Assembly: GCF_900114585.1 (NCBI RefSeq)
Contig: NZ_FOTL01000002.1
Coordinates: forward strand, 62,001-126,000
Direction: 5' to 3'
Source of the DNA: Methanobrevibacter olleyae
Lineage (GTDB): Archaea; Methanobacteriota; Methanobacteria; Methanobacteriales; Methanobacteriaceae
Length of the DNA: 64,000 bases
Every line of letters starts with the position of its first letter. Positions within the stretch are counted from its first letter, which is position 1. Under the pieces are notes generated by a model. That model did no database searches. It was given only the letters and a program-made list of their open reading frames with translations, and had not been told where the DNA came from. Position numbers and translations under genes: made by a program. This document shows positions 19,453 through 27,974 of the stretch, piece after piece.

Positions 19453-20045
19453 CTGCCTCCTAAATTTTAATTTAAAAAATCATCTTTCTCAAGATAAGAA
19501 AATTCTATCAAAGGATAATAAATAATATCATCTTAAGATAAACCATATCTTACTCAAGATAAATTTATTTCATAGAGTAATAAAATATGTGCTATTAAAT
19601 AAAATAAAATTAAATAACAAATATCAAAATTAAACTATTACATTTTAATTATAATAATATCTATTATTTATAATTTATTAATTTTTTTAATAATATTTAT
19701 TATTTATAATTTATTGATTTTTCTAATAATATCTATTATTATTTTATAATTTATTGATTTTTTAATAGAATATTCTAAATAAAATTATTCTTAAATTATT
19801 AGTTCATTAAATAAGAATAACTATGAATATGAAAATATTACTCAAAATTATAGAAATATAAAAAATTTAAATTAAGTAATTTAAATTATAAAAAATTTAA
19901 GTTATAAAAAATTAAATTAAGTAATTTAAATTATAAAAAAATTAGATTAAGTAATTTAAATTATAAAAAAATTAAATTAAGTAATTTAACAAATCAAAGA
20001 CTTATCAAATTAAATAATTCAATTAAAAAATTTAAATTTTTAATT
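19453..20045 (-). repeat. Gene-free spacer with two tandem arrays after rpoA2
   Basis: The spacer between rpoA2 and rpl30e holds no gene. Near rpl30e, TAATAATATCTATTATTTATAATTTATT-type units of about 36 bases occur three times (19652-19764). Near the rpoA2 stop, an exact 30-base unit (starting GTAATTTAAATTATAAAAAA) repeats from 19921, 19951 and 19981, with a degenerate copy from 19875. An unexpected break inside an otherwise tight operon. Confidence 0.7.
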
Positions 20046-21719
20046 TTAATATACATCTGGTTTCATTGTTACACTTACTGATCCAGTACCTAATGGTATT
20101 GGTTGACCAATGATAATGTTTTCAATAATACCAGTTAAATCATCCATTTCTCCTCTAATACTTGCATGAAGTAAATGTTTACCAGTTTCTTCAAATGCTG
20201 CACGAGCAAGAACACTTGATTTTTCACCACTAATACCATGTCTTCCAATAGATTTTACTACACCTTCAGAAGTCATCATATCAGCAACTAACATGATATG
20301 TCTAATATCAACAGTTAAACCTTGGTCTGATAAGGTACGGTTAAGCTCATGAACAATTGCATTACGAGCAGCTTCAATACCTAAGACAGTTTCAATTTCA
20401 TGAATATCATTGGTGCTTGACCTTGCTTTATCAATACCTTCTTCATTAAATATTGCTTTAAGATTAGAACCTTCGGTATGAATAATCCATTCATCATCAC
20501 CTTTACGGATAATAACTTTACCAATACCTTTAGTTCCACTAATCTGCAAATCACGAACTTTATCTGCAAGAAGCCTAATTTCCCTGATAGTAGCATTTTT
20601 AGGTTTAAAGGTTAATTTATAATCATCTTCAATTTCAACTTTCTTAAATATTTTTTCAACATGCGCAATGATATTATCATAGTCTAATCTTCTAGATTGA
20701 ATTTTATTTGGATCAAGGGTAGCAACAACTTGCATACTACCATAATCTAAGTTGAAATCTAATAATATATCATTTATAGTACTTTTACCAATTTTATTTG
20801 CTAATTTTCTAACAAATTCTTCATCATTTTTGTATTCATCTTCAAAGAAAATATCCATAGTAGGTGTTGAAATCTTTTTCCTAGCATCTACAATTTCAAT
20901 TAACCTTGGAAGCCCAAGAGTTACGTTTAACTCAGCTACCCCTGCATAGTGAAAAGTACGCATGGTCATTTGAGTACCAGGTTCACCTACAGATTGAGCT
21001 GCAACTGTACCTACTGCTTCTCCTGCCTCAATATAAGCCCTTCCATAAGCTTCATTAACTTTAAGTACTAATTCATTTAACTCATCATAACTTAAGTCCC
21101 TTTTTATATAAACTCTTACTAAATCCTTAATATAACTTGGAGGAAAATTGATTTGATTTTTCTCAATTACATCTAGAACTTTAGAAATAGTTTCAGGTAG
21201 AAGATTATATTGTTCAACACTAAGCTCTTCTTCAAGAGCTTTAATTAAATAAATATTATTATCTTTAGAATATTCAATATCATTAATTGCAAGCTCTTTT
21301 TCAAGAAGAACCAATGTATTTAACTCATTGTATAGTAATTTTTCTTTAGTGAAAGTAATTGCAGATTCAATAATATCAGTCTTTGAAATATCCATTCCAT
21401 TATTTTCAAATATTTCCTCTACAAGAAGAATTCTAGAAATCAAAGAATTTAACTCATCATCATCTAATTCCCCATCACTGTAAAGTTGTGATAAGCGGAT
21501 TAGATAAATTTCAGATGACTTGACTTTATTCTTTTTAAATGCCTTTTCAACAGTTTTAATTGAATCAATTAAATCATCTAATTCCTCATAGCTTAATTCA
21601 TTATTATCATAATCCTGTTGGAAATTCTTAACATAACTATCAGAAAAATCAATTTTATTCTTTTTAAACAATTCTTCAACATTGACAATTGCTTGAGATG
21701 TTTCATTTTTATCAGCCAT
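20046..21719 (-). CDS. rpoA2: DNA-directed RNA polymerase subunit A'' with expanded N-terminus
   Basis: 557 residues; archaeal A'' is usually about 380-430. From about residue 180 it is canonical: [31 protein letters not shown] (trigger-loop region), [19 protein letters not shown], and the C-terminal GxxGSVSVTM. Residues 14-180 instead hold about four diverged copies (starting near 14, 57, 100 and 139) of the ~42-residue helical unit that forms the normal N-terminus (the fifth copy, 181-223). Marks are VEE(L/I)F.KN..I at the start and LSY(E/D)EL(D/N).L at the end. It begins 18 bases after rpoA1. The catalytic part looks intact. Confidence 0.95.
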
Positions 21720-21737
21720 AAAATTGCCTCCTAACCA

Positions 21738-24542
21738 TTAAGCTTTCTCCATGCCCTTTTCAGCATTTTTACCTGCTTTAGACATATCATTTTTAATACG
21801 CATCTCATCAATAAGTTTATCTAAGTTCGCTACATGACCAAAGTCACTTTTAGCAGGGTCAATACCTTCTTCACCAAATACACTTTGAATAACTTGACCT
21901 TTATTATCAGTAACTAATCCATCAGATCTTACATTTAAATCTTCAAGTGCATTTACAAGTCTTCTTTGCATGTAACCAGATTGTGCTGTACGAATAGCAG
22001 TATCTACAAGACCTTCTCTTCCACCCATAGCATGGAAGAAAAATTCAACAGGGTCCAACCCTTCTTTATAACTGGAATGTACAAATCCTTTAGCTTTTGC
22101 TCCTAACTCATGTTTTCTAAAGTGAGGTAAAGGTCTAGCTAAGTATCCTCTTGTAATACGTCCACCACGAACAGATTGTTGCCCTACACAAGCAGTAATC
22201 TGAGCAAGGTTTAACATAGATGCCCTTGCACCAGTACGAGCCATTACAACAGAGTGGTTTTCAACAGCCATTCCATAATCATATGAGTCATCTGGAGATT
22301 GCTTACCCATAGTAAGGTAACCTTCAGCAATTTCACCAGCAGTGTCCCTTGCTTCCCCAAGAACTTGAACAATACGCATTTCTAAAGTTTCTTCTGCACT
22401 TCTACCTGGTAAAGGTTGAAGCAAACCTTCTTCATATGTTGAAATTAATTTATCTACCTCTTGTTCAGCTTTATCTAAGTGGGCATTGATAACCTCAATA
22501 GCCTCTTCAGGAATTTCTTCATCATTGGTACCGGTAGTAATACCAGTTTTCATAATTCCACAGATAGCTAAGTCAGTAGCGCGGTCTAAGAACTCTTTTG
22601 CACGAGAAGGACCATATTCTTTAACGATTGTATCTAAGATTTTACCTGAGAAAGAACCATATGCTGCTTCATCGATAACCCCATGAGTTAATTGACCGTC
22701 TTTAATTACTACAAATGCATCATATTGACAATTTTCTTTTTGACACTCTTCACATTTTCTACAAATCTCAGCCTTATAATTCATGTTAAGATTATCTGGA
22801 AGTAATAAACTAAATAATTCCTTACCTGTCCAGTTACGGTTTTTACGTTTTAAATGCTTTTTATCAACATGAGGATTGTTTAAAAGATGTGATTTACGAA
22901 TAGCTTGGAATGCTTGCTCTTCACTGAATTCAGAACCATCACGAGTTAAAAGGTAAGCTCCACTAATGTGGTCGTGAATCGCACCAATAATCGGTCCACC
23001 AAACCTTGGAGATAAAATATGCTCCTGTACCCTCATTAAAGATTTTGCTTCTGCACGAGACTCATCAGTTTGGAAAACGTGCATATTCATTTCGTCTCCA
23101 TCAAAGTCCGCATTGTATGGAGGGCATACACAAAGATTTAATCTGAAAGTCTTATATGGAAGTACCCTTACTTCATGAGCCATCATACTCATTCTGTGAA
23201 GAGATGGTTGACGGTTAAACAAAACAATATCCCCATCCTTTAGATGTCTCATTACAACATCCCCCAATTCAAGGTTCTCAACAACTACCTCCTTATTAGC
23301 ATCTAAAACTCTAACTTTCATCTCTTTATCATTAATGTTCTTTTTAACATAGTTAGCACCAGGATGAACATTAGGACCATTTAAAATAGCTTCTCTTAAC
23401 TCATCAATATTCCATTCATTTACATAAGTAGGTACAGTTACCTCTTTTGCAATCATTTCAGGAACACCAACTTCATTGATACTAATATTTGGGTCAGGTG
23501 AAATTACAGTACGTGCTGAGAAGTTTACACGTTTACCAGATAAATTACTTCTGAATCTTCCTTCTTTCCCTTTTAATCTTTGAGCTAAGGTTTTAAGTGG
23601 CCTGCCACTTCTATGCCTTGCAGGAGGAACACCAGATGCTTCATTATCAAAGTAAGTTGTAACATGGTATTGGAGTAATTTCCAAAGGTCCTCTACAATA
23701 AGTTGTGGAGCACCAGCATCCATATTTTCAATTAACCTTTGGTTGATTCTTAAAATATCAACTAATTTATGGGTTAAGTCATCTTCAGACCTTTCACCAG
23801 TATCAAGAGTAATTGAAGGTCTTACGGTTACAGGGGGAACCGGTAAAACTGTAAGTACCATCCATTCAGGACGTGCAACTTCAGGATTAACACCTAAAAC
23901 ATAAGCATCACCATCAGGAATACGTTGAAGTTTTTCACGTACTTCAGATGCAGTTAGATCATAATCCTCTGTTTGATAAGAACCGTCATCATTAGTTAAA
24001 GGATTTCTATCCTCATCATATTGTCTTCTAACTTCAATAATATCGATAGGTTTTACAAGTTTAATATCCTCTTGTTCTGAACCGCAATGTGGGCAAATTT
24101 CTTTAGTTTTTTTGTCTTTGCAGATTTTATAAACTTCTTTTACAAGCTCTTCTACACTTTCACCAGCTTCATTGAGTTCTTGCATTTTTTCACTGAACTC
24201 TTCAATTTCATCTTCTTCTAAAAGAACACGTCCACATTCTGAGCATGTAGAACGTAAGATTTTATGAATATCATCACCAAAACCAACGTGAATAACTGGT
24301 CTTGCAAGCTCAATCATACCAAAGTGACCTTGGCATTCTCCACCCTTTTCACCGCAAGTTCTACATTTTAAACTAGGGTCAATAACACCTAAACGAGAAT
24401 CCATAAGACCAGATTCAATTGGATAACCATCCTCATCATAAGTATCAGGCCTTTCTATTTTTACAACAGACATTTCCCTAATCTGTTCCGGTGACATCAA
24501 TCCAAAATTAATTTGGTCAATTTTTTTAATAATTCCTTTCAA
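21738..24542 (-). CDS. rpoA1: DNA-directed RNA polymerase subunit A'
   Basis: 934 residues, the N-terminal part of the split largest subunit (beta'/Rpb1 equivalent). Clamp zinc motifs are visible (CRTCGEKGGECQGHFG, CSECGRVL, CPHCGSEQ), then RFRSNLSGKRVNFSARTVISPDP, the catalytic Mg-binding NADFDGDEMN, and the funnel region RGGRITRGYLARPLPHF. A short Lys/Ala-rich tail ends the protein. It starts 47 bases after rpoB1 and is followed by rpoA2 after 18 bases. Confidence 0.97.
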   Translation of the reverse strand: MKGIIKKIDQINFGLMSPEQIREMSVVKIERPDTYDEDGYPIESGLMDSRLGVIDPSLKCRTCGEKGGECQGHFGMIELARPVIHVGFGDDIHKILRSTCSECGRVLLEEDEIEEFSEKMQELNEAGESVEELVKEVYKICKDKKTKEICPHCGSEQEDIKLVKPIDIIEVRRQYDEDRNPLTNDDGSYQTEDYDLTASEVREKLQRIPDGDAYVLGVNPEVARPEWMVLTVLPVPPVTVRPSITLDTGERSEDDLTHKLVDILRINQRLIENMDAGAPQLIVEDLWKLLQYHVTTYFDNEASGVPPARHRSGRPLKTLAQRLKGKEGRFRSNLSGKRVNFSARTVISPDPNISINEVGVPEMIAKEVTVPTYVNEWNIDELREAILNGPNVHPGANYVKKNINDKEMKVRVLDANKEVVVENLELGDVVMRHLKDGDIVLFNRQPSLHRMSMMAHEVRVLPYKTFRLNLCVCPPYNADFDGDEMNMHVFQTDESRAEAKSLMRVQEHILSPRFGGPIIGAIHDHISGAYLLTRDGSEFSEEQAFQAIRKSHLLNNPHVDKKHLKRKNRNWTGKELFSLLLPDNLNMNYKAEICRKCEECQKENCQYDAFVVIKDGQLTHGVIDEAAYGSFSGKILDTIVKEYGPSRAKEFLDRATDLAICGIMKTGITTGTNDEEIPEEAIEVINAHLDKAEQEVDKLISTYEEGLLQPLPGRSAEETLEMRIVQVLGEARDTAGEIAEGYLTMGKQSPDDSYDYGMAVENHSVVMARTGARASMLNLAQITACVGQQSVRGGRITRGYLARPLPHFRKHELGAKAKGFVHSSYKEGLDPVEFFFHAMGGREGLVDTAIRTAQSGYMQRRLVNALEDLNVRSDGLVTDNKGQVIQSVFGEEGIDPAKSDFGHVANLDKLIDEMRIKNDMSKAGKNAEKGMEKA

Positions 24543-24589: not shown

Positions 24590-26401
24590 TTAAGCTTTGT
24601 CCCCAAGAATTAATTTAGGGAAAATACATAAACTTTTAAGCTCATCTAATAATAATTTAAATGCATATGAAATTTCAACAGGATAAGTTTCAGAATCTCC
24701 ACAAATTGGACAATACATTTTACGCTTGTTCTTATCATATACCGCTAACATTCCACATTCATTACAAACAACTGCTTCATATTTATCAGATTCATCTAAA
24801 AGCCTTTCTTTTAATGCAAGAGCAGCACCATGTGCAATAAGACAGTCCCTTTCCATTTCTCCAAATCTTAGTCCACCTTCACGTGCCCTACCTTCTGTTG
24901 GTTGTCTTGTAAGTACTTGTACCGGACCAGTTGAACGAGCATAAACTTTATCAGTTGTCATGTGGTGTAATTTTTGGTAATATGCAACACCTACAAATAT
25001 TTCAGCTTCAATACGTTCTCCACTTACTCCATTGTATAAAGATTCGCATCCTGCAGATTCGAAACCATTTTCTTTAAGTGCCTTTTTAATTTCAGATTCT
25101 GTATCATCATTAAATGGAGTACCATCCATACGATGTCCTTCCATACAACCTGCCTTACCTGCAACCATTTCTAATACTTGACCTACAGACATCCTTGAAG
25201 GGATAGCATGGGGGTTTACAATAATATCAGGTACAACACCATCTTCTGTAAATGGAATGTCATCTTGAGATAAGATAAGGCCTACAACACCTTTCTGACC
25301 ATGCCTTGATGCAAATTTATCACCAAATTCAGGTTGTCTTGTATCTCTTACTCTTATTTTAGTTAATTTGCTTCCTTCTACAGTTTCAGTTAAAAGAACT
25401 GCATCTACAATACCTTTTTCACCATGTCTTACAGTAACAGAAGTTTCTCTTCTTTTCTCTGCAACAGTACCGAATTCATCAATTTCTCCCAAGAATCTTG
25501 GTGGAGAAGTTTTTCCAATTAATACATCACCAGATTCTACATGAGATTCTGGGTTGACAATACCATCTTCATCTAAGTTTCTGTAAGATTCTTCTGAACG
25601 GTATCCTTTAACACCTTTTTCTGGAACTTCAAACTTATCCTCTTGTCCACCAGGATATCTTCTCTCAGAAGCTTCATAAGATCTAAAGAATGAAGATCTG
25701 CCCATACCTCTTTCAAGGGAAGATTTATTAAGAATCATTGCATCTTCCATATTATATCCTTCATAGGACATAAGTGCTACAACTAAGTTCTGACCAGATG
25801 GTCTAGAGTCATAATTAATAGCATCAATAATTCTTGTTTTTACTATAGGAGTTTGAGGATGGTGTAATAAGTGTGCACGAGTATCAGTACGTAAAGCATA
25901 ATTAGATACATATAATCCTAATGCTTGTTTTGTCATCCCTGCTTCCATTGTGTTCCTTGGAGATGAATTGTGATCTGAAAATGGAATAATTCCTGCACAA
26001 ATTCCAAGCATTGTAGAAGGATCAATTTCTAAATGAGTGTGATCTTCATCTAATGCACTTAAATTCATAGCAATATATGAATTCTCTTCTTCTTCAGCAT
26101 CTAAGTATTCTAAAATACCTAATTCAAATAATTGATCCCATTTTAATTCGCCATTTGCAATAGCTTCCATATGTTCATCATTCAATGCTGGTTTACCCTC
26201 ATTTACAAGAATTAAAGGCCTTCTAGCTCTACCCGGATCAGTGAAGATGTAAATTTCATGATTATCTTCATAATAAGTGATATTCATTTCATTGTTAATT
26301 TCACCAGCTCTTCTTTTAGCACGCATTTCATCTGTAAATTCTTCAGGATTATCACAATAACCAGTAAGTTTACCATTAATATAAATTTTAGCTCTTACCA
26401 T
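24590..26401 (-). CDS. rpoB1: DNA-directed RNA polymerase subunit B'
   Basis: 603 residues, the C-terminal half of the split second subunit (beta/Rpb2). Conserved segments: [34 protein letters not shown] (active-site Lys/His region), [23 protein letters not shown], and a zinc ribbon CNECG..CPICG close to the end. It starts 13 bases after the rpoB2 stop with a clear SD (GGAGG). Confidence 0.97.
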
Positions 26402-26414
26402 AAAATTCCTCCAA

Positions 26415-27974
26415 TCAATCTATCATATCTACATCCATGTCTCTAATAATACTTACAACTTCTTCTGGCTCGAAACCTTCAGATATTTTACACATTAGAG
26501 CTAAATTTTTTACTAATCCACAATTTGGTCCTTCTGGAGTTTCATTTGGACATATTTTACCAAATTGAGTAGGGTGCAAATCCCTAGCTTCAAAGTGAGG
26601 TTGACTTCTAGTAAGTGGAGAAACAACCCTTCTTAAATGGGAAAGTGTTGCCATGTAACTAACTCTATCTAAAAGCTGACTTACACCAGCTCTTCCACCT
26701 ACCCAATTACCAGTAGCTATTGCATGTTTAATGTTTTCAGTTAAAACATCAGAACGAACAGCTTGTTTAATTGAAAGTTCTTTACCTCTAGATAGACTTC
26801 TTTCAAGTTGATAGCTCATATCTCTTGTTAAACTTGAGAAAGCAACTCTAAACAAGTCTTCCATTAAGTCACCTGAAACTCTTAATCTCTTATTAGTGTA
26901 ATGGTCCTTATCGTGAGGTTCTCTTTGACCTTCAATTACTTGAAGTAACATTTCAGTCATTTCTGCTAAGTAAATAGCTTTATCGTAACGTTTATCAGGC
27001 TCAATACCCATATGAGGTAATAAGTATCTGTCTATAACATCTTCAGCACGTTTTATTCTGTACTCTTCAGTCATTCCTTTAGCTACCCTATTACCAATGT
27101 ATTTAATAGCAGCCATTCTTAAATATTCATCCCTTTCTTCTTTAGTCTTATTTTTCATTAAATTAGAATCTAATTTTAAGTCTTTTTCTGAAACTTGAAT
27201 ATCATCTGCAATATACATTTGGAAATTAAAGTCATCTGAAATCTTTTTAATAATCTCTTGATCAGTTGATAATCCTAATGCTCTAAGTAAGATAACCAAT
27301 GGAATTTCACCTGGAACATATGGGAAAGAAATTCTTAAGAAGACTCCGCTTTTACGTGGCTTTTTATATTCTAAACTAATCCTTGCTCTAAAACCACTTT
27401 TAATTGAAGTTACAATAGCTTTTGCATGTCTATCTTCAATTTCATCAATTCGCTCTAAGATAATCTTATTTGGAGCGATTTCTTCCATAGTAACAACAGC
27501 TCTTTCAGAACCGTTTACAATGAAGTATCCTCCAGGATCTTTAGGGTCTTCACCTTTTTCCATTAACTCTTTATCATTAAGTTTATCTAAGTGGCATATG
27601 CTAGATTTAAGCATAAGAGGCAATTCTCCAATATATACTTCTTCTAATTCTTCTTCTTCATCACTATTATTATCGTGTAATGCCATTTCTAAATACATAT
27701 GAGCAGAATAGTTTAAATTTCTAAGTCTTGCTTCAGTGGGATAGATCATACTTTTAGAACCATCAGCTTCTTTGGTAAATGGTTTTTCAATTTTAATTTT
27801 ACCAGTTCTAAGAGTATAATTTCCTTTTTCATTTTCTATATTGATCGGTTCAGTAATATCAATAATTTTTTGTATACGATTTTCAACAAAGTCATTATAA
27901 GATTTAATATGATGATCTACAATATCATATTTATCAAAAAATGAATCTACTAAACCCCATGTCTTATTTTTCAT
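26415..27974 (-). CDS. rpoB2: DNA-directed RNA polymerase subunit B''
   Basis: 519 residues, the N-terminal half of the split second subunit, as in methanogens generally. Protrusion, lobe and fork regions are recognisable: [44 protein letters not shown] and, at the C-terminus, [25 protein letters not shown]. It follows rpoH by 221 bases that are mostly a 13-bp tandem repeat. Confidence 0.97.

Follow-up and report, generated by a model that had tools for sequence, protein, structure and literature searches.

Few molecular machines are as strongly conserved as cellular RNA polymerases, and the domains that single lineages have added to them are usually held to be ancient. BEAN and HABAS, two lineage-specific bacterial domains that lie inside beta and beta', have been dated by the authors of that work to early evolution, and an archaea-specific N-terminal addition of Rpo1C, the A'' subunit, is also already known (PMC11515920). 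In RNA polymerase II, the foot of Rpb1 is multihelical and recruits the capping enzyme (PMC6981093). Here we describe an A'' subunit encoded in a window of 64,000 nucleotides from Methanobrevibacter olleyae. It shares with other archaeal A''/Rpo1C proteins (TIGR02389) the full core, the trigger loop, the operon position and one N-terminal helical unit, but adds four further units, three of them certain, before the canonical one. Like BEAN and HABAS, the resulting arm is a lineage-restricted addition to an otherwise conserved polymerase; unlike them, it appears to be all-helical, N-terminal, self-derived and recent, with another fold and a position that is not within a domain. In the open-licence literature we found no account of tandem copying of an A'' unit, or of an A'' extension in Methanobrevibacter.

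The gene, rpoA2, occupies 20046..21719 on the minus strand and encodes 557 aa, while most A'' subunits of Methanobacteriales have about 385-400 aa. An earlier note, written from the letters of this DNA, had assigned the same coordinates to the A'' subunit, and the profile searches agree: TIGR02389 matches with an E-value of 2.9e-155 and 516.8 bits, above its curated cut-off of 420.65, and PF04998 with an E-value of 7e-55. The conserved core (residues 233-557; 20049..21023, minus strand) contains the trigger-loop region, whose columns are invariant or nearly so in an alignment of 32 sequences. Thus, the protein satisfies what defines the family in its core, and departs, with five units, from the usual single N-terminal unit, which TIGR02389 does not demand. 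Among the best stretches of the listed chains, solved A'' structures match this protein only from residue 178 on. The genome has one full A'' copy, directly after A' in a standard archaeal polymerase operon that runs entirely on the minus strand, with B'' (26415-27974), B' (24590-26401) and rpoA1, or A' (21738..24542), all named from reading their translations. Beyond A'', an AT-rich gap is followed by L30e, a NusA-like protein, S12, S7 and elongation factor 2, also read from translations; within the gap, AT-rich tandem repeats with periods of 20-60 occupy 19518-20038.

The five units follow one another on the minus strand as unit 1 (residues 13-55; 21555..21683), unit 2 (residues 56-98; 21426..21554), unit 3 (residues 99-141; 21297..21425), unit 4 (residues 142-180; 21180..21296) and unit 5 (residues 181-226; 21042..21179). 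Unit 5 is the canonical unit of all A'' subunits; both the N-terminal segment of short A'' proteins and solved A'' chains align with it. Among the added units, unit 2 is the most conserved, unit 3 evolves fastest and unit 4 is degenerate. In pairwise Smith-Waterman comparisons, the scores of units 1 and 2, 1 and 3, 1 and 5, 2 and 5, and 3 and 5 exceed those of all 2000 shuffles (p 0.0005), and units 2 and 3 follow closely (p 0.001, 2000 shuffles). When 30 A'' subunits without added units are used to build a canonical-unit profile, it scores 45.4, 43.4 and 38.1 on units 1, 2 and 3, respectively, while the best of 200 column-shuffled controls reaches 21.3. The extension has a GC content of 25%, compared with 33% for the core; such low GC could favour chance matches through composition, which the shuffles preserve. 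Unit 4 pairs significantly with no other unit in the same test of 2000 shuffles and is not found by the canonical-unit profile. A wider profile of all units places it in register at 16.7, a marginal score that 2 of 300 shuffles equal. A tandem-repeat finder reported no array inside the A'' gene, so the repeat is visible at the protein level only.

We are therefore all but certain of the five-unit anatomy of this N-terminus, and the added units very probably derive from the canonical one. The earlier note had placed five units in residues 14-223, with borders that agree with ours within a few residues (13-226), and had conceded that its reading depended on a significant repeat in self-alignment, which units 1, 2, 3 and 5 provide. 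Its proposal that the normal unit was duplicated four times and then diverged holds for three of the extra units; the fourth, marginal by sequence, leans on predicted structure.

An AlphaFold2 model of the extension, computed from an alignment of only five sequences, has a mean pLDDT of 90.1 and a pTM of 0.79 and consists of five similar helix pairs with a period of about 43. The predicted helices span residues 27-38 and 44-63 in unit 1, 70-81 and 87-106 in unit 2, 113-125 and 130-145 in unit 3, and 194-206 and 211-231 in unit 5. In unit 4, the first helix (152-163) is followed by a second (168-187) that is broken into two pieces, 168-171 and 174-187. A full-length model gives the same helices in the extension, with a poor core (pTM 0.42), and so we did not use it to place the arm on the enzyme. 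As modelled, the extension is an alpha-solenoid of helix pairs. It resembles designed helical repeats and other alpha-solenoids in this organization, and many of its weak top Foldseek matches are in fact designed helical proteins. It differs from them in having no Foldseek match among solved structures at E <= 0.001 and no Pfam repeat family: over residues 1-224 nothing scored above a curated cut-off, which leaves no curated TPR, HEAT or other repeat model. The searches thus give no support to the idea that the extension is a known repeat family or a known fold.

Is the arm made as part of the polymerase? The only good ribosome-binding site of the gene, a Shine-Dalgarno AGGAGG (21727..21732, minus strand), lies 7 nt before the ATG of residue 1, in a context similar to that before both short and long A'' genes of the genus. 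Between residues 137 and 235 the reading frame contains no ATG, GTG or TTG, which rules out an internal start near residue 180, a possibility that had been raised for this gene, as far as sequence can tell. Moreover, dN/dS over residues 13-180 is 0.14-0.39 among five genomes, compared with at most 0.04 over residues 233-300 (Nei-Gojobori estimates, with some large synonymous distances). The arm is constrained, though far more loosely than the core. Together, the strong Shine-Dalgarno sequence, the missing internal starts and the purifying selection make it very likely that the extension is translated as part of A'', a step for which the sequence evidence is strong. That the arm is absent from the mature protein, through a downstream start or by cleavage, would fit its dispensability in relatives, but the same three observations stand against it, and we consider this highly improbable.

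The distribution of the arm bears on its origin. An A'' match was obtained in 125 of the 151 genomes of the order, and most of these subunits have one N-terminal unit. This rules out an ancestral extension common to all Methanobacteriales, and it also disposes of the suggestion that the whole order shares the same unrepeated extension. The five-unit form was found in five genomes of the genus (G000, G026, G035, G036 and G037) and is confined to a subgroup of Methanobrevibacter, as judged from these few genomes, which include metagenome assemblies. In two further genomes (G027 and G031) the arm is longer still and gives two detectable matches to the unit, and close relatives such as G022, G033 and G038 have an A'' without the arm. 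Of the 19 genomes in the genus, seven gave no A'', two of them over 90% complete; the search found no match in G021 and G024, given as 95% and 99% complete. These absences are probably gaps of assembly or binning. For units 1-3, the highest scores are mostly obtained with canonical units from the genus itself, and copying therefore probably took place within it. The canonical unit would have been duplicated in tandem within one Methanobrevibacter subgroup and would then have diverged to give the five-unit alpha-solenoid.

Outside the genus, two added units are present in eleven genomes of genus g9 (30.5 and 24.8, shuffle maximum 20.1), some of whose A'' genes are cut by a contig end, and one added unit in eight genomes of family f3 (24.6, shuffle maximum 17.4), presumably a Methanothermobacter-like group. 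In G005, from another genus, A'' (L052:3704-5473) is longer by about 270 residues at its N-terminus, which for the most part do not resemble the canonical unit; one borderline unit scores 14.6 in this long extension (95% level 13.6, maximum 19.0). In G063 (L078:3066-4832), A'' is fused N-terminally, in one frame, to two CarboxypepD_reg (Ig-like) domains, an addition that is unrelated to the helix units. In Methanobacteriales, growth at the N-terminal end of A'' is recurrent, as added units occur also in a second genus and in f3 and as an unrelated Ig-like fusion is found at the same end. On the tree of A' and A'' combined, the unit-number states need six changes. A single clade of extended Methanobrevibacter is weakly rejected by the A'' core alone (p-AU 0.04), appears in the A' tree with low support, and is not rejected by A' and A'' together (p-AU 0.41). 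The gains look separate, and the change counts do not distinguish gain from loss. An essential polymerase subunit would then have acquired ordered units in recent times, seemingly on more than one occasion, through duplication of the helix pair at its own terminus.

On the other side of the junction, A' ends in a C-terminal tail, SKAGKNAEKGMEKA (21738-21790), which among the 57 loci read is present only in this genome, G026, G035 and G036. We could speculate that the added helices stabilize the A'/A'' split or assist co-translational assembly: the arm adjoins the split point, and the four genomes with this tail, a lengthening of the junction's other half, are all five-unit genomes. However, G027 and G031 keep a short A' tail next to their longer arms, and one unit suffices for enzyme assembly in most archaea. 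We consider a role in assembly unlikely.

The A'/A'' split is located in the foot region of RNA polymerase, and the arm should thus project there. By established polymerase anatomy, it would point from the foot side, away from the active site, where it would serve as a peripheral docking surface for a protein or nucleoprotein partner. The comparison with the Rpb1 foot is one of position, not of sequence: both would be multihelical projections from equivalent regions of the largest subunit, whereas the arm is a tandem repeat. Since the Rpb1 foot docks the capping enzyme, a docking role for the arm is reasonable. We propose it tentatively, and place its probability a little short of even. The account as a whole, in which a solenoid built from the duplicated canonical unit sits at the foot as a docking arm, is in our judgement evenly poised between right and wrong. 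It is also tempting to speculate, with rather less confidence, that several lineages separately added copies of the subunit's own helical unit, and once Ig-like domains, as docking arms that differ between lineages and bring different partners to an enzyme that is invariant elsewhere.

Compared with docking, constructive neutral growth accounts for these observations about equally well. Here, the A'' N-terminus would lie on a free surface at the A'/A'' split, where extra units are tolerated, pack on adjacent units and are retained with no specific partner; we give this reading tentative credence too. The number of units varies by lineage and even an unrelated fusion occurs at the same A'' end, as expected of such growth, and the surfaces of units 3 and 4 diverge fast. 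In unit 3, only 6 of 24 polar positions are invariant, a fast-evolving surface that weighs against docking and suits a neutral spacer; so does the absence of the arm from close relatives. Acidic inserts and terminal repeats elsewhere in the A'' of the genus suggest a permissive subunit. On the other hand, five ordered units, purifying selection and constant length (556-557 aa in total in G026 and G035) would be costly for pure drift, and half of the polar positions of unit 2 are invariant. The series of A'' subunits with 1, 2, 3 and 5 units in these rumen and gut methanogens offers material to separate functional docking from neutral accretion.

Other peculiarities of the polymerase genes were seen in related genomes. 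Acidic insertions in A'' follow about residue 364 of our numbering (L043:11902-14847, L033:1843-3477, L041:2486-3841 and L046:5328-6638); the insertion has roughly 400 aa in G036 and is shorter in G022, G033 and G038. In G022, a Gly/Ser/Lys-rich repeat also occurs three times at the end of A''. G028 has bacterial-type beta' (rpoC-like) genes on contigs of its assembly (L037 and L038), probably contamination, and loci in two assemblies from the family (L088 in G107 and L083 in G136) encode divergent A' and A'', with about 43-50% identity to the A'' described here, that may represent a second polymerase or contamination. Finally, in G036 (L043:292-14847) a cassette is inserted between A'' and L30e, where the window has only the AT-rich gap. 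It encodes a ClpB-like AAA+ protein, two proteins without a Pfam match, Hsp70, two zinc-ribbon proteins and a second A'', in which the trigger-loop region is altered, AGQSIGEAFTQMLYDNKHRGYS.
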